Shown: piece after piece, positions 14,854 to 62,679 of the stretch | How the letters are laid out: every line of letters begins with the position of its first letter | Numbering within the stretch: position 1 is the first letter of the stretch | From: Pseudomonadales bacterium | GTDB lineage: Bacteria; Pseudomonadota; Gammaproteobacteria; Pseudomonadales; Pseudohongiellaceae | DNA length: 64,000 bases | Direction of reading: 5' to 3' | Assembly: GCA_022819645.1 (NCBI GenBank) | Contig: JAJEGU010000017.1 | Coordinates: 1-64,000, forward strand | The notes under the pieces: model-generated | Databases searched by the model: none | Seen by the model: the letters and a program-made list of their open reading frames with translations, nothing else | Told to the model about the DNA's origin: nothing | Position numbers and translations under genes: made by a program

Positions 14854-17800
14854 TTACAGGCGATAGCTGGCGCCGATGGTGATTCGCCGGTCGGTCAGGC
14901 CCTGAAAACACACGAGGGCACCGCTGTTGACGCAGGATTGCCTGACATCCGACTCGGTTAGGTTGACCGCCTCGACACCAATGCTCAGATTGTCGTTCAC
15001 TTCGTAACTGACGCTGGCATTGAGCTGCCCCCGGTCTTCCTGCACCACGGGGAAGCCCCACGGGAAGCTGGAAGTACTACCGAAATCGGTGGAGCGATAG
15101 GCTTCCCGCCAGGTGTATCGCATCCTCGCCGAGACGCCGTACTTTTCGTAGTACGTCGTGAGGTTGTAGGAGGTACCCGACAGGTCGATCAGTTGTCCGC
15201 GGAGGGTGACATCGGTAGCGCCGCCCGACATCAGGGCGAACGCGGCCCGGGCGCGGCTTGTGGGGTTGAGGAAGGTATCCCCGCCGGAGAACTCCTGCTC
15301 GGTGAAGTTGGCGATAAAGCCGAATCCGGACGCCCAACCCAGTTCGTCCTCAAACTGTGCGAGATCATACTGCGCGGCGATTTCAAATCCTTCCTGGGTG
15401 GTTTCCCCCGCGCCATTGACTGTCGTTGCCGCCGGAACGCAGACTCCCACGCCACCGGCATCGCCGAATACATTGACATCCGCAATGGGGTTGAAAATAC
15501 CGCCTTGTTCACAGGGAGCGGTGGTGTCGCGGAAGCCGGTGACCGGATCTTCGAACGGGTCGTCCTGGGTGCGGACGAACAGCCCGGTGCGCTCCTTGTG
15601 GAACCAGCCGATGCTCAACACGCTCGAAGGCGCGAAGTACCATTCGGCGGAGAGATCGAAGGAGACCACCTCTTCCGGCTCAAGGCCGGGATTGCCGATC
15701 GAAACCGGAGGGTTGGGGCTGGTGCTGAAGGTGGTTGAGGTGGACAGGCTGTTGAAACTCGGACGGCGAATATCCTTGCTCCAGCTTGCCCGAAGCGCCA
15801 CATCCGCGGCGACGTTCGCCACGAGGTTGAGCCGCGGCAACAGGAAGTCATAGCTGCCGGTGGACGTGGTCGGCGTTGCCTGGCCATTGGTGACCGAGTT
15901 ACCCGTTGAACTCACTTCGGTTTCCAGATAGCGCACGCCCAGGTTTCCGCGGAACACGCCGCTGGCGAAATTCGCCTGGGCGTACAGGGCGTCGGTTTCT
16001 TCCTCGATATCGAAGAATGCGGCGACACTCGAGGTCGGCTCATTGATGGAGCGGGAGCCGCCGTGGGTGGTAATGGCACCATTCAGCGTGGCCAGCACAC
16101 CGGCGGGGTTCGAGGCCACGAGTTCCGGGTTGATCAGGAGAAAATTGCCGATGTACAGCGCCCTGCCGTCGGCCTCATTGAAGTTGTCCGGGCCGGGAAC
16201 GAGCAATTCGGCGAACAGATTTCCCCTGGGAGAGTCCGACATACTCCGCAAACCGCGATTGGTGCGGATGTCGTTGTTGAAATTGGAAGCCGTACTGCCG
16301 CGGTAGCCGAAATCCAGCGTGGTGAAGCCGGACCAGTCCAGATCGTAGCTGAAGTCCAGCACCACGGCGTCTTCGCCGCTTTCGGCGACATCCTGGCTGA
16401 TGTTGGTGTCTCGCAGCACCACGTTTGCGGGATCCAGCAATTGTGCGACAGTGGGCGCGCCGGGTTCGCCGAATGCGATGCCCCAGGAAAGCGTACCGCC
16501 GGACAGGTCATAGCGGAACGGGGTGCTGTTGTCGTTGGCGCCGCCCGGGTCCAGCGGCACGTTCGGATTGATGAAGTTGAGCGTGGTGTTGAAGCTGGGG
16601 GTGGTGGAATCGGAACTTGAGGTGGAGATTTCCGCACGCCCCGACCATCTGCCCCTTTCCCAGTCGGCGCCCCATCTGAATATCTGGCTTTCGGTCAGGC
16701 GCGAGTTGGTGTCCGACGAGAAGCGAAGATTCGGGTCGTCATCGTCAACCGCCAGATCAACGCCGATAACGCCCCGCAGCGCCGCCTCGATCGTGCCGAG
16801 ATTCTGTGTGCCGTTCCTGCCGTCGACGGAACCGAAGTTGATGGTTTCAAAGGCATCGGGAATTGAAGCGTTTCTCAGACTGCTGACGCCCGATCCCTGA
16901 ACCCTGGAACTTTCCTGCCTGCGTTCCTGGTCATTGAGGACCGCATCAAAATACAAGGTCAGTTCTTCATTGGGGGCCCATTCGAAGGAGCCGGCGAAGT
17001 TTTGGGTTTCGTACTCGAAATTGTCGTAATCCTGATTGAGGAATTGAATCGGCAGGAAATTGAAGGACTGGGCGGCCGCCACGCCGCTGCTGGCGGCAAC
17101 ATTGTTGTCGCGGTCGGTACGGGGGCGGAACGCGGTGACATCCTGCTCGGTGTAGCTGGCGCTGATCACGATGCCGACATCTCCGGCGTCGGTGGTCCAG
17201 TTGTCGCCCCAGGTGCCCGATACCCTGGGCATGAAGTCGCCATCGGTGGTGAGACTGCTGTTTTCGCCCTGGAGCCGGATTGCAGCGATGCGGTCGCCTA
17301 TCTCCAGCGGGCGGATGGTTCGCAGGTTGATGGTGCCGCCCACGGAGCCTTCGATGGTTTTCGCTTCCGGCGCCTTGGTCACTTCCACCGCGGAGATGAT
17401 GGCCGCGGAAACATCTTCGAAGTCGATGCCGGTGCGGCCCGCGCCGGAACCCACGGTGGACACGCCATTGATCTCGGTGCGATTCGCATTGGTGCCGCGA
17501 ATCTGAACGCCGGTGCCGACGCCCGCCGTCCGGGTAATCTGGATACCGGTCACGTTCTCCAGCACTTCCGCAAGATTCTGATCGGGCAGCTTGCCGATAT
17601 CCTCGGCCTGAATGACTTCAATCAGGTTTGCCGCGGCCCGCTTTTCCTCCAGCGCGCTGGCTAGGGACGAGCGGATGCCGGTAACAACGATCTGTTCCAG
17701 ATTCGCCCCGGCTTCCTGTCCCAGCCCCGGCATACTGATTGCCAGGGCGGAAACGCCGGCCGCCAAGGCGATACTGAGCGGATTGCGCTTGAAGGAGTCA

Positions 17801-17892
17801 GGAACATTGCGGTCTGGCGTCAAGCCGGTCGGGGCATGGGCCCCGGTGTCTGTGCCCATGGTGGAAGTGAGCCTGGTACGGGTGAAATTCAT
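14854..17892 (-). CDS. TonB-dependent receptor
   Basis: IVVTGIRSSLASALEEKRAAANLIEVIQAEDIGKLPDQNLAEVLENVTGIQITR; C-terminal SYRL. Confidence 0.94.
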   Translation of the reverse strand: MNFTRTRLTSTMGTDTGAHAPTGLTPDRNVPDSFKRNPLSIALAAGVSALAISMPGLGQEAGANLEQIVVTGIRSSLASALEEKRAAANLIEVIQAEDIGKLPDQNLAEVLENVTGIQITRTAGVGTGVQIRGTNANRTEINGVSTVGSGAGRTGIDFEDVSAAIISAVEVTKAPEAKTIEGSVGGTINLRTIRPLEIGDRIAAIRLQGENSSLTTDGDFMPRVSGTWGDNWTTDAGDVGIVISASYTEQDVTAFRPRTDRDNNVAASSGVAAAQSFNFLPIQFLNQDYDNFEYETQNFAGSFEWAPNEELTLYFDAVLNDQERRQESSRVQGSGVSSLRNASIPDAFETINFGSVDGRNGTQNLGTIEAALRGVIGVDLAVDDDDPNLRFSSDTNSRLTESQIFRWGADWERGRWSGRAEISTSSSDSTTPSFNTTLNFINPNVPLDPGGANDNSTPFRYDLSGGTLSWGIAFGEPGAPTVAQLLDPANVVLRDTNISQDVAESGEDAVVLDFSYDLDWSGFTTLDFGYRGSTASNFNNDIRTNRGLRSMSDSPRGNLFAELLVPGPDNFNEADGRALYIGNFLLINPELVASNPAGVLATLNGAITTHGGSRSINEPTSSVAAFFDIEEETDALYAQANFASGVFRGNLGVRYLETEVSSTGNSVTNGQATPTTSTGSYDFLLPRLNLVANVAADVALRASWSKDIRRPSFNSLSTSTTFSTSPNPPVSIGNPGLEPEEVVSFDLSAEWYFAPSSVLSIGWFHKERTGLFVRTQDDPFEDPVTGFRDTTAPCEQGGIFNPIADVNVFGDAGGVGVCVPAATTVNGAGETTQEGFEIAAQYDLAQFEDELGWASGFGFIANFTEQEFSGGDTFLNPTSRARAAFALMSGGATDVTLRGQLIDLSGTSYNLTTYYEKYGVSARMRYTWREAYRSTDFGSTSSFPWGFPVVQEDRGQLNASVSYEVNDNLSIGVEAVNLTESDVRQSCVNSGALVCFQGLTDRRITIGASYRL

Positions 17893-17996
17893 CTGGAATT
17901 CCTCTTGAGAATTGGAATTGACAATGGCTTCGGCCAGTGCGACAAACCGCAGTGTAGCACATAGGCGTACCAAAAAAACCTACCAAGTGGATAAAA

Positions 17997-18009
17997 TTGG
18001 TAATACCAA
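17997..18009. promoter_or_regulatory. Palindrome TTGGTAATACCAA upstream of the TonB receptor (candidate UxuR/ExuR-type GntR operator)
   Basis: Perfect 6-1-6 palindrome about 105 bp upstream of the ATG; two more TTGGTA half-sites on the minus strand between it and the gene. Confidence 0.55.
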
Positions 18010-18017
18010 AAATTATA

Positions 18018-18491
18018 TCAGGCGCGATTCGCCTGGCGCAGGATGCGTTGCTTGTCGATGTTCCATTCCCGTTCCTTGATGCTGTCGCGCCTGTCGTGGT
18101 CCTTTTTGCCCCTGGCGAGTGCGATGCGGCATTTGACGAGATGCTCGCGCCAGTAGAGTTTGGTGCAGACGCAGGTGTAGCCCTTCTGCCGGGTGGCGCC
18201 GAAGAGTTTTGACAATTCCTTTCTGTTGAGCAGCAGCTTGCGGGTGCGGTCCGGGTCCGCCACCACATGGCTGCTCGCGCTTTGCAGCGGCGTGATATGG
18301 CAGCCGAGGAGAAAGGCTTCGCCATCCTTCATCAGCACATAGCTGTCGGTCAACTGGACCTTTTTCGCCCGCAGGCTCTTCACTTCCCAGCCCTGCAGGC
18401 ACAGGCCCGCCTCGAAGCCTTCTTCGATGTAATAGTCGTGGCTCGCTTTCCTGTTGACCACGATTGTGGTATCAGGTGTTTTCTTTTTCAT
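18018..18491 (-). CDS. smpB: SsrA-binding protein
   Basis: [42 protein letters not shown] ... KGKKDHDRR-like C-tail. Confidence 0.95.
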
Positions 18492-18534
18492 GGCCGCCTT
18501 CCGGGAAAGCGCAAATATAACAGGGGAGAGACGA

Positions 18535-19938
18535 ATGGCACACGAAAGGGGGAAATTCTCTTCCCGTCTGGGTTTCATCCTCGCCGCGGCGGGTTCGGCG
18601 GTGGGGCTCGGCAATCTCGTGGCCTTTCCCGTCATGGCCTCCAAGAACGGCGGCGCCGCATTCCTGCTCGTCTATCTGTTTTTCATCGCGGTGATCTGCT
18701 ATCCGGTGATGATGGCCGAAGTCGCCATGGGCCGGAATACCCAGCGTAATCCCGTGGGCGCCTTCCACAAGCTCTCCGGGGGTAGCAGGCTCTGGCACGG
18801 GGTGGGCATGCTGGCCATTCTGACGCCATTCATGATCGCCGTGTTCTATTCGGTGATTACCGTCTGGCTGCTCGTGTACCTGAAAGAACTCGCCACCGGT
18901 GGCCTGACCCTGCTCGCCGATGACGCAAGCTTTGGCGAGATTGCGGCGCGGCCCGCCACGTTCGGCTATCTGGTGTTTCTGCTCGTGCTGGTTTTCCTGA
19001 TCCTGCTTGGCGGCGTCAAGGGTGGAATCGAGCGGCTGGCGCGGGTGCTGATGCCGACCCTGGCGGTGATGCTGCTCGCCCTGACCGTGTTCGTACTGAC
19101 GCTGGATGGCGCCAGTGTGGGCATCTCCTATTATCTGGTGCCGGATTTCAGCCGCATGAATCTGGCGGTGGTCAATGGCGCCCTGGCCCAGGCGTTTTTC
19201 TCGCTTTCCCTGGGTATGGGAATCCTGATCACCTACGGCTCCTATTTCAGCCGGGAAGACAGTATCGCCGGCTCGACCCGCATGGTGGCCATCGCCGATA
19301 CCGGCATCGCCTTTTTCGCCGGACTGCTGATCCTGCCGGCGATTTTCGCCTTTGATCCCAACACCAACACCGATGAGCTTTCCACGAGCAGCGTGGGGCT
19401 GATCTTCAGTTTCCTGCCCAAGATATTCCTGTCCATGGAAGCCGCGGTAGGCTATTTCGGCGCCAGTCTCGCCGCCATCGTGTTCTTCACCCTGGTGTTT
19501 TTCGCCGCGCTGACCTCGCTGGTGTCGATTATCGAGATTCCCATCAGTTGCTGGATCGACGAGTTCAAGGTCAGCCGCCGCAAGGCGATTCTGGCCCAGG
19601 CCGCGTTGATGACGATCTTCACGATACCCGCCACCATGTCCCTGGGCATTTCCGATTTCTTCACCAATTTCACGAGTTATGGTGGAGTGTCCAAATCCTT
19701 TTTCGATCTGGTGTCGGACGTTTTTTACGAAACGATACTGCCGCTGGTGGGTTTTACCGTGTGCATCTTCTGCGCCTGGCGCTGGAAGCTGAGCGGGCTC
19801 GCCGCGGAACTTGAGGTCGGCGACTCGGAATTTCGCGGTTCGCGGCTGCACCGCTATATCGATTTCTCCCTGGGGGCGATCATTCCCGCGGTGCTGCTCG
19901 TGGTATTCTTGAGCACGGTTTACCAGATTTACCTGTAG
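18535..19938 (+). CDS. Neurotransmitter:sodium symporter (NSS) family transporter
   Basis: [41 protein letters not shown]. Confidence 0.93.
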
Positions 19939-19939
19939 C

Positions 19940-20374
19940 ATGGTTTCGGTGGAACGCAGCGCCCTGCTGCCGTATTCCCCGCGGCAGATGTTTGATCTGG
20001 TCAACGATATCGAGCGGTATCCCGTGTTTCTGCCCAATTGCCTGTCCGCCAGGGTGCTGGAAAAGAGCGACGGTGAGCTTGTTGGCGAGCTGTGCCTCGG
20101 CAAGGCGGGCATTCGCCAGCGCTTTGTTACCCGGAATCGGCTGCGGCCTCCGGAAGCCATCGAAATGGAACTGGTAGAGGGCGATTTTTCGCATTTCAAC
20201 GCCCAATGGCGATTCGAGGCAATGGGCGGGGATGCCTGCAAGGTGACCCTGGAAATGGACTTTGCCTTCCGCTCGAAACTGGTCCATCTCGCCGCGGCCA
20301 GCCTGTTCCGCGACACCGCCGGTGAAATGGTGGACGCCATGGCGGCCCGGGCCCGGGCGGTGTATGGTCCATGA
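19940..20374 (+). CDS. ratA: RatA/coenzyme Q-binding SRPBCC protein
   Basis: ERSALLPYSPRQMFDLVNDIERYPVFLPNC; adjacent to rnfH. Confidence 0.9.
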   Translation: MVSVERSALLPYSPRQMFDLVNDIERYPVFLPNCLSARVLEKSDGELVGELCLGKAGIRQRFVTRNRLRPPEAIEMELVEGDFSHFNAQWRFEAMGGDACKVTLEMDFAFRSKLVHLAAASLFRDTAGEMVDAMAARARAVYGP

Positions 20375-50609: not shown

Positions 50610-51023
50610 TCAACCACCATTCGCTGATGACGAAGGCAGAGCAGCCGGAATATCTGTATGGCTGAAGTCGTTTCCTTTATACAGCAAAGCTTCGCCCGTG
50701 ACCCGGGACAGGGCATATGCAAAGCAGTCGCCAAAGTTCAATGCAGCCCGATGCCTGCCTTTACCGAATTGGCGCCATGCCTGTCCGGCGACTCTGGATT
50801 GCTCTCCAGTCACCGGAGCAGTTTCTATTCCGGCAGTTTCGAGGAAGGCATCGAGTTCGTTGCCAGCCTCAATGCCTCCACGACTTTCCACCACGATAGC
50901 CGCCTCCAACAGGTTTGCCGCCGAAATCTGGCAATTCATTGAGGTCGCGATTGCGGTTTCGTATTCCTGGGCATCAGGTTCCCGATCGAGGACGGCAATC
51001 AGTGCGGAACTGTCTACGATCAC
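50610..51023 (-). CDS. vapC: PIN-domain toxin VapC (GTG start)
   Basis: VIVDSSALIAVLDREPDA ... ALNFGDCFAYALSRVTGEALLYKGNDFSHTDI. Confidence 0.92.
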   Translation of the reverse strand: MIVDSSALIAVLDREPDAQEYETAIATSMNCQISAANLLEAAIVVESRGGIEAGNELDAFLETAGIETAPVTGEQSRVAGQAWRQFGKGRHRAALNFGDCFAYALSRVTGEALLYKGNDFSHTDIPAALPSSSANGG

Positions 51024-51277
51024 TTCGGGAGACCCCTTTCGTCGTATAGCAAATCGCCATGATCCACCGCACCGGGGCCTGGCGCCATGAGGCGAGAGCA
51101 TCTATCTGCAATGGCGCGCATTTGATGCAGACGTACATCAATTCCAAGCCGTCTTTGTTCACGGGCAAGGCGTTCTCGGAGTGCGACAGTGATGGCACCA
51201 GTCTTTGTTTCGCCCGTCAGTATCGCCAATTTGCTGGCAAGCTGGCAGGTTTCATCGTTTTTGATGTTCAGGCTCAT
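51020..51277 (-). CDS. vapB: VapB-type antitoxin (Rv0623-like)
   Basis: MSLNIKNDETCQLASKLAILTGETKTGAITVALRERL; 4-nt overlap with vapC. Confidence 0.9.
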   Translation of the reverse strand: MSLNIKNDETCQLASKLAILTGETKTGAITVALRERLAREQRRLGIDVRLHQMRAIADRCSRLMAPGPGAVDHGDLLYDERGLPK

Positions 51278-55718: not shown

Positions 55719-56756
55719 CTAACCTGCAGAAAACGCAGCAAGGTTAGATGATGGTTGAGCATTTACACCGCTTAATCTACTATTTATTGCGACGGCCAGA
55801 TCTACTCCGTGACTTCTAGTATTGTCTGTTACAACTTCTTTTGCACCGGTCGCTCTTATGTATTCGATTGTTCCTTGAAAATCGGCATGATTTGTGAGGG
55901 CCACACCGTACGCTCGCTCAGAATATTCGATAACTGGATTGTCAGGTTTTGTCATAAAAGCGCTACAGGAAATGCTAGTGCCTTCAATAAGCTCATTTTT
56001 AAATCCATCTCCCTTCGCGTATAGTCGAATATACGACTGACTGCCGAGTGCACTGCTGCAACTGCGCCCCTCTTCGGAATCAATTCTTATAATCGACCCT
56101 GCGGCGAAGCCATTCGCTTGATACACTGAAATCTCACCGATCAATCTCTTGCTTGCCAAGATCGGGACTCCAACGTTAGTAGATAACACATGCAGTACCC
56201 GTTCTATTGTTCCCCTGTGAGCGTGGATATGCACGGAACCTTGACGAAGTCGTTGACTAACTATTTCCAGCAGACGACTCTCGGCCTCTCCCTGTGTGTA
56301 TTTTCGAACGCTTGCTGGGTTGCCATAGGTGCTATCTACAACAAGTTCGTCGACCTGAATTACCTCACTAATGGGCCAAGCGAAGTCTCCAGAATACCCA
56401 CAACGAAATCCATCCGAATGCTCCACTACGACTTGGGCAGAACCTAGCATGTGACCCGACCTTACGAAAGTGAGCTTTGTTCCGTCTTCCAAATCCTTTA
56501 CTGTGTTCCAATTAAGTGAGATAACGTTATCTCGATATTCAATATCTGCATTAAGTTCTGAAATCAGAAGAGCTTTAGTCTCTTGGCTCATGAAGATATC
56601 TTGCATGCCCTTACTTTTATTAAAATCTCCCATGTGATCGTCATGAATATGGGTTTGTACACGATAATCAAAACCTTCCGCGTACCCATCGCAGACTGTG
56701 TTAGATCCAAGGCGCACCGCGCCATTATGAAATACGTCAACTCTTGGAAGAGCCAT
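55719..56756 (-). CDS. Metallo-beta-lactamase fold, beta-CASP-type nuclease
   Basis: THIHDDHMGDF, SGHMLGSAQV, YSGDF, VDSTYG, VHIHAHRGT, LTNHADFQGTIEYI. Confidence 0.85.
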   Translation of the reverse strand: MALPRVDVFHNGAVRLGSNTVCDGYAEGFDYRVQTHIHDDHMGDFNKSKGMQDIFMSQETKALLISELNADIEYRDNVISLNWNTVKDLEDGTKLTFVRSGHMLGSAQVVVEHSDGFRCGYSGDFAWPISEVIQVDELVVDSTYGNPASVRKYTQGEAESRLLEIVSQRLRQGSVHIHAHRGTIERVLHVLSTNVGVPILASKRLIGEISVYQANGFAAGSIIRIDSEEGRSCSSALGSQSYIRLYAKGDGFKNELIEGTSISCSAFMTKPDNPVIEYSERAYGVALTNHADFQGTIEYIRATGAKEVVTDNTRSHGVDLAVAINSRLSGVNAQPSSNLAAFSAG

Positions 56757-57459
56757 TCTCCAATGCCTTTGATACGAGCGCTCTGATCCTTGCCTCTATG
56801 TTCTCTTTACCAATTTCTTGCATTGAGGCATTAAAGTCCTCGTTACCCACTAGCGTGAACAGCTTGGGGCCGAGACGACCGGTCGCGCTTCTAATTCCCA
56901 AACTTCCTATAGCGGAAGCCAATATTGAATCTCTGGCAGTTTGAGTCTTTTTTTCCAGGATTGATTCAATTTCCAATGGCATTGAGCCAACAAATACAAA
57001 TCGCCTTGTAATTTGTTGACGCATGCCAAGTACTTCTTTAATGCATTGACTGATAGTCTTGTCGGATCGATTTCTGAGTTGCGCTACCTGTCGCACTTCC
57101 TTACTGGTTAATCCATCTGACAAAATGGAGTCAGCAACAACTCGCTGCTCTTCAGCATTGCTTAGTTTTGTTAACTCGAATGCGGCTGTGAACCCAATGA
57201 AACTTTTTTCTGCCCCCCATCCGACCAGATGCTGCAAATCCTTCGGAAGTCTGAGGATGGTCAAGAACCTCCCTATGTGTCCTGTACCATCAAGTTGGAC
57301 CGCTTCAGCACAGTCTTGAAGAGACGTACCCTCCGAGCGAGCCCTTCTCAGAAGTTCTCCTACCTCAATCGGAGACAGAGGTCGACCCTTCTTGTGTGTC
57401 CCATATCCCAGGGACATACGAAGACGGCCAAGCTCCAATGCGTTTAACCCAGCGAGCAT
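56737..57459 (-). CDS. ParB-HTH-like protein of unknown function
   Basis: DGTGHIGRFLTILRLPKDLQHLVGWGAEKSFIGFTAAFELTKLSNAEEQRVVADSILSDGLTSKEVRQV resembles ParB central HTH. Confidence 0.6.
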   Translation of the reverse strand: MLAGLNALELGRLRMSLGYGTHKKGRPLSPIEVGELLRRARSEGTSLQDCAEAVQLDGTGHIGRFLTILRLPKDLQHLVGWGAEKSFIGFTAAFELTKLSNAEEQRVVADSILSDGLTSKEVRQVAQLRNRSDKTISQCIKEVLGMRQQITRRFVFVGSMPLEIESILEKKTQTARDSILASAIGSLGIRSATGRLGPKLFTLVGNEDFNASMQEIGKENIEARIRALVSKALENGSSKS

Positions 57460-57462
57460 GTT

Positions 57463-58290
57463 CTAGCTTCCTTCCAAGGCTCCACGATCAATTAGAGCCT
57501 CTTCGATAAGAAGGGCCACTGTGTCGTCTTGGTTTTCTCCTTCTTCCTTAGCTACGTGCTGAATCGCTGCATGAACGTCATTAGATACGGTTGCGATGAC
57601 CTGTACTACTTTAGATCCTGTTTTTGCTCGTTCAATTAAATCGTCCATATTGCGTTCAGGGTGGTCTTTGATTTCCTTATGTACCTTTTTCCGCTGAGCC
57701 CCGGTCATCGGAGCCATCTCCTTGGCTAATTGGACGGCGACCTCCGGGTCAGCCACTCCTTCGTCATCGCTCGCGGCATCTTGTGCCTTTACCGCTACAT
57801 TAACATCAACGACGCCATCATCAACCAGACCTTTCAGTTCTTTGAGCAGCCTTGGGTACTTAATGTACTCCGAGATCTTTTTTCTAGGAAGACCTGTGGT
57901 TTCTGCTACCTCTTTGACAGTCCCATAGATGTTGTATAGAAACAGAACCCCATCCTTCAGCTCTTTCCCAGTAAGCTGCCGCCGAATCAAGTTTTCCGTA
58001 ATGGAGATTGCTTTCGCTTGCCCCTCATCAACCCGCTCATTCAGGACAGCTGCTGAAATTTTTTCCCTTCTCAAGTGCTTATGAGCTAAAAAGCGTCTTT
58101 GCCCAGTTAGAATCTCCCACTTACCCTCCTCCCGAGCTTGGCATACAACGATGGGTTGCAAAAGACCCTGAGTTTCAATGCTTCTCGCTAATTCATCTAT
58201 CTCTTGCCCAGTGTTTTGTGTCCGCACTTGCCCCTTGCTAATCGTTAAATCATCCAAGGGAATTTCTCGATATTCCACAATTCTTGCCAT
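57463..58290 (-). CDS. ParB N-terminal domain protein
   Basis: IPLDDLTISKGQVRTQNTGQEIDELARSIETQGLLQPIVVCQA ... ILTGQRRFLAHKHL ... ITENLIRRQLTGKEL. Confidence 0.9.
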   Translation of the reverse strand: MARIVEYREIPLDDLTISKGQVRTQNTGQEIDELARSIETQGLLQPIVVCQAREEGKWEILTGQRRFLAHKHLRREKISAAVLNERVDEGQAKAISITENLIRRQLTGKELKDGVLFLYNIYGTVKEVAETTGLPRKKISEYIKYPRLLKELKGLVDDGVVDVNVAVKAQDAASDDEGVADPEVAVQLAKEMAPMTGAQRKKVHKEIKDHPERNMDDLIERAKTGSKVVQVIATVSNDVHAAIQHVAKEEGENQDDTVALLIEEALIDRGALEGS

Positions 58291-59707: not shown

Positions 59708-61474
59708 CTACGCTTTACTTGGTGAAAATTGCCAAACTGATGCCGCCTCCTTTGCAAGTGCCCTAGATCTCTTTTCGATGACCTTTGGCGTCCATTCGTC
59801 GTGGCTCTCAGCGACCATTCTCGGCATGCGCAATGTACTGTTTTTGTACAACTGCGCCTTGGCCAAAAAACTTTTGTTAAATTCGTCGCTCGACCGATTT
59901 TCCCTTTTTGTCAGAATCACCATGTTGCCGGTGCGATAGATGCATTCCTTCGCACTTTCTTCCGAAAATGCCTTCCAATCAGACCAATGTTGATCGGATT
60001 GCGGTAGTACATGCTCGACGGTACAGTGATCTCGCCTCAAAATCTCAGAGCCAACTTGAAGTTTGGAGTTGATTCCGAATAGGAATCGTAGTGCTTTAGC
60101 GTTAGTACGTATTTCCATTTCAGTCATACGACGAATAAATCTCGTATTATCAATAACATCAAATTCGTCCGTTCCGGCAAGTTCCTCATAGATATCGAGC
60201 GATTGCAAATCAGTTCCCCTGAAGACGTCCATGGCAATATTGGAGAACGCTGCTTCAAACTTGGAAGGCTCGAACTTCGAGGCCACGAAAGTCGTCCTCA
60301 TCACGAATGAAGCCAGATTTTTCAGACTGCGAGCAACCACCAAGCCAACCTTACGTTTCGTCTCCTTATCCTTTTCTTCAAGAAATCGATGCAGCAGAGA
60401 AAACACCAAGGGCTGGGTCACCTTATAGTCCTTGAGTTCGCCGAGCAACACAGTCACGTCCCTATAGCCAGTGATCTTGGGAAGGTTTGTATTTAGTGCC
60501 GCATCCGGTCTCGAAGACGTGAGGGTCCGAAACAGTTGCATACTATCTTGCTTTCCCAAGCCAGCAATGAGTCGAAACACGTAACTTGGTGGATCATTTT
60601 GTCCAGCAGCCCTTTCTACCTTTTGCCTGACTTCCCTATAAAATCTGTTTTTTTGTAGATATCCATACTTGCATTGCAAATAGCATCGGAAATAGTCCTG
60701 CACATTGCTTGGCCCAAGAACTACAGCCGGAGACTCTAGTCTTTCGTGGATAGTTTCCCGTCGGTTAGGGTCTTCCTGATCAGAAAAATACGAATACAAT
60801 CGGTTACGGATCAAATCGACATCGTCGAGAGGTTTGCCACGGGCATTAAGCGATTCAAATACTGAATTCGCATCTACATCACCGGGCACTTCGAGTACCG
60901 ACACTTCAACCTTTTGCATGACAAAATCTGAAAAGCTTTCAATTGCTCCTCGATCCATTGCTCCCACAAAAATATCGATTACGTCCCACGCGGAGGTGAG
61001 CGCTCCATTAGTTCCAATGTCGTGACCTCGAATTAACTGCTGATAAGTGGATTTGTTTCGTCTTGGCGGTTCAATTCTTGGCTTGTACTTGGCGGCATCA
61101 GCTAACTTGAGAATGTGGTAGTCAGGCTCGTCAAACAAGGCACGTAATCCGCGAGTCTCTCGTGCATTATCTGGAGGCAGCATCTTTTCGAAACGGCGGC
61201 AAAGAGCTGCGATCAGTAACGAAAGAGTAATGAGCCGTTGCTGGCCGTCATTGATTCTCAGGGAAGTCATCAAGTTTGAGCTGACCAACATTATCGAACC
61301 AACGAAATAGCATGCTTTATCGGCTTCGACCGCGTCGTGCAGATCTGTCAGCAGTTCGCCAACCTGCTCTTCGGCCCAATCGTAGTAGCGCTGATGCCAA
61401 GGTACGGTAAAGCATCCCGAACATAGGACTTCTGATACGAGGCGAACCTCGGAAGCGATCTTTGTCTTGCTCAA
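59708..61474 (-). CDS. DUF262 + DUF1524 (HNH-like) protein, GmrSD/SspE-like
   Basis: VPWHQRYYDWAEEQVGELLTDLHDAV; RINDGQQRLITLSLLIAAL; VFESLNARGKPLDDVDLIRN; CTVEHVLPQSD; RTGNMVILTKREN. Confidence 0.88.
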   Translation of the reverse strand: MSKTKIASEVRLVSEVLCSGCFTVPWHQRYYDWAEEQVGELLTDLHDAVEADKACYFVGSIMLVSSNLMTSLRINDGQQRLITLSLLIAALCRRFEKMLPPDNARETRGLRALFDEPDYHILKLADAAKYKPRIEPPRRNKSTYQQLIRGHDIGTNGALTSAWDVIDIFVGAMDRGAIESFSDFVMQKVEVSVLEVPGDVDANSVFESLNARGKPLDDVDLIRNRLYSYFSDQEDPNRRETIHERLESPAVVLGPSNVQDYFRCYLQCKYGYLQKNRFYREVRQKVERAAGQNDPPSYVFRLIAGLGKQDSMQLFRTLTSSRPDAALNTNLPKITGYRDVTVLLGELKDYKVTQPLVFSLLHRFLEEKDKETKRKVGLVVARSLKNLASFVMRTTFVASKFEPSKFEAAFSNIAMDVFRGTDLQSLDIYEELAGTDEFDVIDNTRFIRRMTEMEIRTNAKALRFLFGINSKLQVGSEILRRDHCTVEHVLPQSDQHWSDWKAFSEESAKECIYRTGNMVILTKRENRSSDEFNKSFLAKAQLYKNSTLRMPRMVAESHDEWTPKVIEKRSRALAKEAASVWQFSPSKA

Positions 61475-61497: not shown

Positions 61498-62679
61498 TTA
61501 AACAACGGCTTCAAGGCTGCGATGCAATGCCTGACGGGCATCTTCTTTGATCTGGTCTCTCCACCACACGTCTTCGATACAATCGATTTCTGCCGGCAAA
61601 ATCAGTGGTTCACCAATCTCAGATTCCAGCTCCCGCAGCTTGTTGAGAATCAGTTTGCGAACCTCGAGTTTGAATGGCCCCAGGATCGGACTCCCATCCT
61701 CGCGATGTTCAACGTTCCCATTCCGCCGCACAGGCAATCGATTGCTCTTGTCTTCCCGAAGTTCCAGCAGCCATTCCCTGAAATCGAACAGCGCTTCCAG
61801 CTTTTCCGTCTCACCGTGGCCGGAGTCTATCAGCCCTTTAAGACTTCGGTCCTTTTGGACAACGGTGCATGTCCAGCAGCCAAATCGTGGAGATGTGCTG
61901 CCGCAGGAAGGCGCCTGTTCCTTCGTGACGACCAAAGGACACTCCCCACCTCCTGCATTGCGATACAAGGTAATCAAGCGCCGATGGGTGCCGCCCCATG
62001 GCGGACTCCGCTGCATGAGTGTCATCCAGACATCGTTATCCTCCAAGTCAGCCAGCGGGGCGAACATCTGACAGCCCTCCACCAGTCCTTGCGGATTCAA
62101 TTTCTGGGCAGAAACTCCTCGATTATTCATCGCACGTCGGCGATTGTCGGACTCCGCTCGCCTCGTGCCGATCAGCAAAATCGCACCGCCGAATTCCTGC
62201 GTAAGTCGAAGGATCAGCTTGTTTGTGGGCGAAATCTTCATCCTGTCGGTACACCAGCGAAAATTCCTGGTGGGCGGTATGTAGCCTCTCCCTATGACGC
62301 TGACCCAGAATGTCTGGTCAATGCATGGCGTCGTAACTTCCGTTGAAATGGGTAGGCCCGACTGGACCCCCGCCAGATCGATTTGCTGCAACGAGTTTCG
62401 GAGATGACTGATAACGAGGGGCGATTCCACCAGCGTATCGTTCCCAACGACCAGAATCTGGCGGCTTCGCTGCTTCAGCGGCAGGTCCGCGATGACCTCC
62501 CAGACCAGTTGGAGCAGCAATGTGGAATCCTTGCCGCCCGAGTACGCGACGATCCACGGGTAGCTGTGCGCCTCCAGATATTCGGAGCGAATGACATCCT
62601 TTATGTCCTCAAGGCGTGAGGGCAGGCCTGAGATCGAAATTGCGAGGGCAGGCTCTGTCATATTTTGTTGCGGCTCCAA
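61498..62679 (-). CDS. dndC: DndC-like DNA phosphorothioation sulfurtransferase (PAPS reductase family)
   Basis: WIVAYSGGKDSTLLLQLVWEVI; VVGNDTLVESPLVISHLRNSL; FWVSVIGRGYIPPTRNFRWCTDRMKISPTN; CGSTSPRFGCWTCTVVQKDRSL. Confidence 0.92.
   Translation of the reverse strand: MEPQQNMTEPALAISISGLPSRLEDIKDVIRSEYLEAHSYPWIVAYSGGKDSTLLLQLVWEVIADLPLKQRSRQILVVGNDTLVESPLVISHLRNSLQQIDLAGVQSGLPISTEVTTPCIDQTFWVSVIGRGYIPPTRNFRWCTDRMKISPTNKLILRLTQEFGGAILLIGTRRAESDNRRRAMNNRGVSAQKLNPQGLVEGCQMFAPLADLEDNDVWMTLMQRSPPWGGTHRRLITLYRNAGGGECPLVVTKEQAPSCGSTSPRFGCWTCTVVQKDRSLKGLIDSGHGETEKLEALFDFREWLLELREDKSNRLPVRRNGNVEHREDGSPILGPFKLEVRKLILNKLRELESEIGEPLILPAEIDCIEDVWWRDQIKEDARQALHRSLEAVV

Follow-up and report, generated by a model that had tools for sequence, protein, structure and literature searches.

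The window analysed here, a 64,000-nucleotide stretch from contig JAJEGU010000017.1 of a Pseudomonadales bacterium, carries a conserved six-gene operon on the minus strand in which dndC is followed by genes for a GmrSD nuclease, an SNF2 ATPase, two ParB-type proteins (ParB1 and ParB2) and an MBL nuclease, with DndD and DndE found nowhere in the genome. The last four genes form a cassette that is exchanged for a different one in related loci and that also accompanies canonical DndCDE operons. We regard it as rather probable that the operon is a phosphorothioation (PT)-type self/non-self defence, in which DndC would write PT without DndDE, GmrSD would act as a nickase and the four-gene cassette would add a second restriction or scanning activity. 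That PT is produced, that the operon acts against phages and what each cassette protein does we infer from sequence and predicted structure.

The first gene of the operon encodes, judging by its sequence, an intact and conserved DndC. The open reading frame spans 393 codons if read from a TTG, while the ATG at codon 7 (62661) is the likelier start. The identification as a DndC-like sulfurtransferase made in a preliminary description was borne out by the DndC family model (TIGR03183; 334.7 bits, cut-off 290.4) and by PADLOC (DndC E = 4e-110), with SspD and BrxP merely marginal. The BrxP match reached 34 bits compared to 367 for DndC, placing the protein outside that family, and none of the BREX type 4 partners PglZ, BrxC and BrxL was found in the operon. 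The motifs described earlier as intact are so: the PP-loop (S47-GGKDS-T53) and five cysteines (C143, C247, C259, C268 and C271) are invariant across 21 aligned DndCs, canonical ones among them. A search of the PDB with a DndC profile returned no solved relative.

A scan of genome contigs for DndC relatives yielded 80 loci. DndCs at least 56% identical to that of the window comprise 25 members (window, L011-L032, L057 and L097, the last from G046) in about eight phyla, with Pseudomonadota, Rhodothermota, Gemmatimonadota, Acidobacteriota, Nitrospirota, Nitrospinota, Chloroflexota and Dadabacteria as the named hosts; papers link at least one of them, AqS2, to a sponge host as a symbiont. In none of these loci does DndD or DndE lie beside dndC, while DndD adjoins dndC in 51 of the 57 loci whose DndC is less than 52% identical (the other six, without a detected DndD, being two very short contigs, L061, L084, L086 and L078, whose contig equals that of L122 in length). 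The 25 DndCs form a single clade (SH-aLRT 99; a subset in a second tree, bootstrap/SH-aLRT 100/99), which sits beside DndD-linked short DndCs and far from the canonical DndBCDE-type DndCs. A phylogeny had been proposed earlier as a check, and it returned this one clade, sister to DndD-linked DndCs, and not an ordinary canonical placement.

Several more distant loci were also observed. In L122 (G225:C103, 3785-6640), a sister DndC is followed by a DndB-family protein (DGQHR) and a 141-aa protein, with no DndD/E and no GmrSD, making it a candidate for a still smaller DndDE-free unit. In the DndD-less loci L084 (3315-4253) and L086 (1368-2360), which carry other DndCs, the next gene starts like an SBD-HNH PT-binding nuclease (PHKPLLLLAILDQIE). 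Distant DndC relatives of about 800 aa, also PAPS-reductase proteins, were seen on the IncC and IncHI2 plasmids of L113 and L114 and occur on many conjugative plasmids.

Table 1. Genes of the DndC operon in the window, with the matches on which each assignment rests.
Gene	Product	Coordinates	Strand	Evidence
1	DndC-type PP-loop sulfurtransferase	61498..62679	-	TIGR03183, PP-loop, 5 Cys
2	GmrSD (DUF262 + DUF1524/HNH), DndI/SspE-like	59708..61474	-	PF03235 5.6e-26, PF07510 3.4e-22
3	Short SNF2/SWI2 ATPase, 457 aa	58313..59686	-	PF00176 1e-42, PF00271 1e-22
4	ParB1, ParB N domain + HTH	57463..58290	-	PF02195 5e-16
5	ParB2, ParB-type HTH + C-terminal alpha/beta domain	56737..57459	-	HTH_ParB 8e-4, AF2
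6	MBL/beta-CASP nuclease	55719..56756	-	TIGR04122-like 64.5 bits, below cut-off

The six genes (Table 1) are separated by 23, 21, 22, 3 and -20 bp, and their GC content of 45-55% contrasts with about 63% in the neighbouring genes. Two copies, L011 and L030, whose DndC is 96% identical to that of the window, indicated purifying selection on the operon (dN/dS 0.05-0.2, only where dS was unsaturated). Their nucleotide similarity to the window ends at 55740, just within the end of the MBL gene, and on the opposite side of the operon extends into a symporter. The ParB genes belong to the same conserved operon as dndC, and the ParB coupling suggested earlier is retained. Elsewhere in the window, at 50610-51277, inspection by eye suggested a small toxin-antitoxin pair of VapBC type, its two minus-strand ORFs (163 and 85 aa) overlapping.

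Within the cassette, SNF2 is a bare two-lobe ATPase with invariant DEMGLGKT and DEAQ motifs. The ParB1 profile matched Noc/Spo0J in the PDB (E = 3e-17), and its nucleotide-site motifs, GxRR (GQRR) and ENxxRR (EN-L-RR), are invariant. ParB2 lacks the nucleotide domain and is predicted to carry a small alpha/beta domain after a DNA-binding HTH (AF2, pLDDT 90), the model matching the Noc DNA-binding domain (Foldseek, 6y93; TMt 0.85, E = 9e-3). A KH-like identity of its C-terminal domain was dropped, the Foldseek matches being weak. The MBL profile matched FttA and SNM1A in the PDB, and the metal site is complete (HxHxDH, H102, D124 and H290, all invariant).

Across the related loci, the DndC-GmrSD pair is followed by one of two cassettes: SNF2-ParB1-ParB2-MBL (type A, as in the window) or GIY-YIG-DndB (type B). 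Type A was found in the window, L011-L014, L016, L017, L019, L022-L024, L026, L028, L030, L032, L057 and L149, and in L021 as far as its contig reaches; type B was found in L015, L025, L027, L029 and L097, and the contigs of L018 and L031 were too short for assignment to either. DndC and GmrSD trees, built separately, were concordant on the main groups, and both rejected type A as one clade (AU test; p = 2.2e-5 and 1.5e-6, respectively). In each tree, the type B locus L027 was nested with high support among type A loci. Because the two trees agree and both reject a type A clade, we conclude that DndC and GmrSD have stayed together while the cassette downstream of them was exchanged. Only DndA, DndC and GmrSD are common to both types, so either this DndC needs no loader or a ParB-superfamily protein acts as one, which would be ParB1 in type A and DndB in type B and L122.

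Some individual loci depart from these arrangements. In L020 (9482-11248), an in-frame fusion joins the N-terminal half of GmrSD to DndB from its middle onwards; a deletion seems to have taken out the HNH and GIY-YIG parts. The GmrSD and SNF2 frames are broken in L012, where an insert of about 4 kb (16147-20062) also separates ParB2 from MBL. Divergent DndB/DGQHR-like genes were seen on the opposite strand near the type A operons of L012 (1127-2374) and L023 (9703-10965).

The type A cassette was also encountered with canonical dnd genes. When 396 genomes from one other phylum were searched with a ParB2 profile, a full-length remote ParB2 was recovered in G802, where a canonical DndC-DndD-DndE operon (625, 555 and 65 bits, respectively, DndE slightly below its cut-off) is convergent with ParB1-ParB2-MBL-SNF2-GmrSD (L145). 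In a third phylum (188 genomes), a search with an MBL profile led to G1707, in which DndC-DndD-DndE-SNF2-ParB1-ParB2-MBL-DndA form one gene run (L148) with DndC, DndD and DndE each over the cut-off. The DndCs of both loci group with canonical DndCs in the tree. With at least these two canonical contexts, the cassette goes together with PT writers from two distinct lineages. Its connection to phosphorothioation is the stronger for this, and a role as a mere replacement of DndDE is less likely. Our first idea had been such a replacement, and it was demoted on this evidence; the cassette is probably a restriction module and not a simple DndDE substitute.

Elsewhere, none of 398 other genomes in the window's phylum had a ParB2 match, and of the 399 genomes searched around G386 only G386 itself did. 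Neither ParB2 nor MBL had real relatives in plasmids, and none were found in viral contigs; the cassette is thus no trait known from plasmids or phages.

An alternative in which the cassette is part of the writer deserves weighing, even though we consider it unlikely. Here ParB1 and ParB2 would pick the site, SNF2 would open the DNA and MBL would nick it for sulfur insertion by DndC, filling the role of DndDE, while GmrSD alone would restrict. The clade lacks DndDE yet has a ParB/Srx-superfamily partner wherever the contig is long enough, namely ParB1 in type A and DndB in type B and the sister locus L122, and each cassette has one nuclease and one ParB-superfamily protein. Replacement of DndDE also has a precedent in SspBC (PMC10853773). 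However, a substitute would be superfluous in the complete DndCDE operons of L148 and L145, the same DndC clade pairs with an unrelated cassette in type B, and DndB accompanies DndDE in canonical loci too. Since the cassette occurs in those DndCDE contexts and type B does without it, the ParB genes are not mere stand-ins for DndDE.

The GmrSD protein also points to a PT system. Its nearest solved relatives, by profile comparison and structure prediction, are DndI and SspE, both phosphorothioate-sensing nickases. The family profile placed DndI first in the PDB (9jfl, E = 1.5e-30) with SspE also among the best relatives, and the predicted structure (pLDDT 85.7) matched DndI first (Foldseek, TM 0.66) and SspE next, with no other significant match. 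The DUF262 and DUF1524 folds of these nickases are both present. The DGQQR NTPase motif (76-80) and the HNH residues E487-H488, P491, N517 and N533 are invariant in 16 sequences, and Gln28 is kept. The position of the PT-sensing tyrosine (DndI Y25, SspE Y30) is His27 in the window protein, and among the 16 aligned GmrSDs it is His in 13 (the window included), Tyr in two and Arg in one. Reading of PT through that exact residue is therefore unsupported.

This substitution is among the points that would fit a DndC that no longer writes PT on DNA and instead has another substrate or serves as a sensor, the operon then being a modification-targeting or abortive island of GmrSD and nucleases. GmrSD proteins can be type IV enzymes that target phage DNA carrying modifications, and the loss of DndDE would fit as well. 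Against this stand the motif residues shared with canonical DndC, all of which are invariant, the co-operonic DndA of most members, and the ties of both GmrSD and the cassette to PT systems. We consider this reading quite improbable.

We then assessed whether the missing partners are encoded elsewhere. The preliminary description had noted the lack of DndD and DndE and named a genome-wide search as a check, and the result agrees with it: a whole-genome search of the window's own genome (G000, 97.7% complete) found neither DndD nor DndE. IscS is encoded in G000 (TIGR02006, 659.9 bits against 643.2). The DndE model TIGR03184 had no match there, and the search was rerun with PF08870 and five positive-control genomes, in which DndD was found in all five (three over the cut-off) and DndE in four. 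An ordinary DndC with dndDE elsewhere in the genome, the case that had been set against the earlier reading, did not occur. Among the 25 clade genomes, DndD exceeded the cut-off in two, and the same two had DndE, in both cases within separate complete DndBCDE loci (L098 and L099); weak, sub-cut-off DndD-like ATPases in some of the others were never accompanied by DndE. Most clade genomes are metagenome-assembled (MAGs), so the absence of DndD/E carries less weight outside G000.

Of the components required for canonical Dnd modification, DndD and DndE are thus lacking in G000 and never adjacent in clade loci, while a cysteine desulfurase is available. The DndA gene adjoins or overlaps dndC upstream in most clade members, but no desulfurase gene lies beside dndC in the window or in the two loci closest to it. 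IscS is able to replace DndA (PMC10853773, PMC11662687). It is very improbable that the operon is a remnant, left over after an ordinary dnd system shed DndDE and now degenerating or borrowing DndDE in trans. A few members are damaged, as in the broken frames of L012 and the in-frame deletion fusion of L020, but gene order is the same across several phyla, selection is purifying, the active sites are intact, the DndC and GmrSD trees are congruent, and 23 of the 25 genomes have no over-cut-off DndD or DndE elsewhere.

Another locus of the same genome may be PT-related. In L110 (G000 contig C84:95000-114900, 9757-11653), an SspD-like PAPS reductase lies beside a PT-DNA-binding SBD-HNH restriction endonuclease (NF045808, 270.7 bits against 180), and no SspB was seen there. 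The pair is possibly a second PT-related unit, or possibly in conflict with PT on host DNA. That the operon's DndC pairs with SspB/SspC encoded elsewhere is scarcely credible, given that this SspD-like gene, the one point in its favour, is SspD itself adjoining the SBD-HNH nuclease, and that G000 gave no DUF4007 (SspB) match in a search that had no positive-control match.

Under the reading that we favour, of a PT-type defence with a DndDE-free writer, sulfur would pass from a cysteine desulfurase (their own DndA in most members, chromosomal IscS here) to DndC, which would place PT on host DNA with no need for DndD or DndE. The DndI/SspE-type GmrSD would respond to PT and act as an NTP-driven nickase on unmarked DNA, its release at PT being under NTP control. 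ParB1 and ParB2 may load on or slide along DNA and place SNF2 and MBL there as a second effector, SNF2 remodelling or translocating and MBL degrading. The cassette would cooperate with whichever PT writer is present, be it the clade DndC or canonical DndCDE. Several points speak against this PT-defence reading: the PT-sensing Tyr is mostly His, published surveys see DndD/CxC and DndE as essential (PMC10853773), and the host encodes a PT-binding SBD-HNH restriction enzyme, which could conflict with its own PT DNA unless the sequence contexts differ. The joint claim, that a widespread DndC lineage writes PT without a DndDE- or SspBC-type loader and that a new ParB-clamp-guided helicase-nuclease module is common to it and canonical DndCDE, is tentative, and we place it a little short of an even chance.

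Compared to known systems, the operon shares with IscS/DndA-DndBCDE and DndI of Salmonella Cerro 87 a DndC writer and a DndI-type DUF262-DUF1524 nickase, with DGQQR and HNH kept and IscS as a possible sulfur source; it differs in having no DndD/DndE and, in type A, no DndB, in the added SNF2-ParB1-ParB2-MBL genes, and in the mostly His PT-sensing position. SspABCD-SspE likewise combines a PAPS-reductase-family writer with a DUF262-DUF1524 nickase and no DndDE, but the window enzyme is DndC and not SspD, SspB (DUF4007) was unfound in G000 (by the search without a positive control), and SspE is a longer protein powered by GTP. The restriction modules DndFGH, PbeABCD and SspFGH are also multi-gene modules on PT writers that are exchangeable between writers, whereas SNF2-ParB1-ParB2-MBL as a unit matches none of their models. 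In IbrA/IbrB, a PAPS-reductase protein is encoded with a ParB-superfamily protein, and this pairing is the likeness that had led to its being offered as a precedent. It proved a poor fit: the family model assigns the window protein to DndC, it is sister to DndD-linked DndCs in a tree that contained no IbrA reference, the Pfam scan found PF01507 as its sole domain above the cut-off and no IbrA-type architecture beyond it, and three further members of the operon, the DndI/SspE-type nuclease, the SNF2 ATPase and the MBL nuclease, had gone unmentioned. Of the earlier reading, the intact DndC, the lack of DndD/E and the ParB coupling stand, and the IbrA/IbrB precedent does not.

A 2024 survey described DndD/CxC and DndE as an obligate core and attributed their absence in about 250 taxa to poor assemblies (PMC10853773). 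The preliminary description likewise took canonical phosphorothioation to need DndD/E (or SspBC). Against the survey stands a monophyletic clade with conserved operons that lacks both in about eight phyla; for this clade, our data argue against the poor-assembly account. The main text of the survey holds no MBL, GmrSD or beta-CASP terms, and the cassette is not there. A full-text literature search (open-licence papers, no preprints) found neither the type A nor the type B DndC gene set described. In sponge thaumarchaea, genes resembling dndA and dndC have been reported together with a 'dndB-like' gene containing DUF262 and DUF1524 (PMC6790972, PMC7848895); going by the published description, these share the DndA-DndC-GmrSD core, and there they were unrecognised as a system and no cassette was described.

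The clade is thus a candidate DndDE-free PT writer that can be tested, with two interchangeable cassettes on a constant DndC-GmrSD pair. The apparently undescribed SNF2-ParB1-ParB2-MBL genes add a four-gene PT-associated module to DndFGH, PbeABCD, SspE and SspFGH. In sponge metagenomes, DNA phosphorothioation was reported as enriched 'even though not functionally complete' (PMC5099237). Because the clade includes at least one sponge symbiont (AqS2), and dndA/dndC-like and DUF262-DUF1524 genes occur in sponge archaea (PMC6790972), this lineage may explain that signal.
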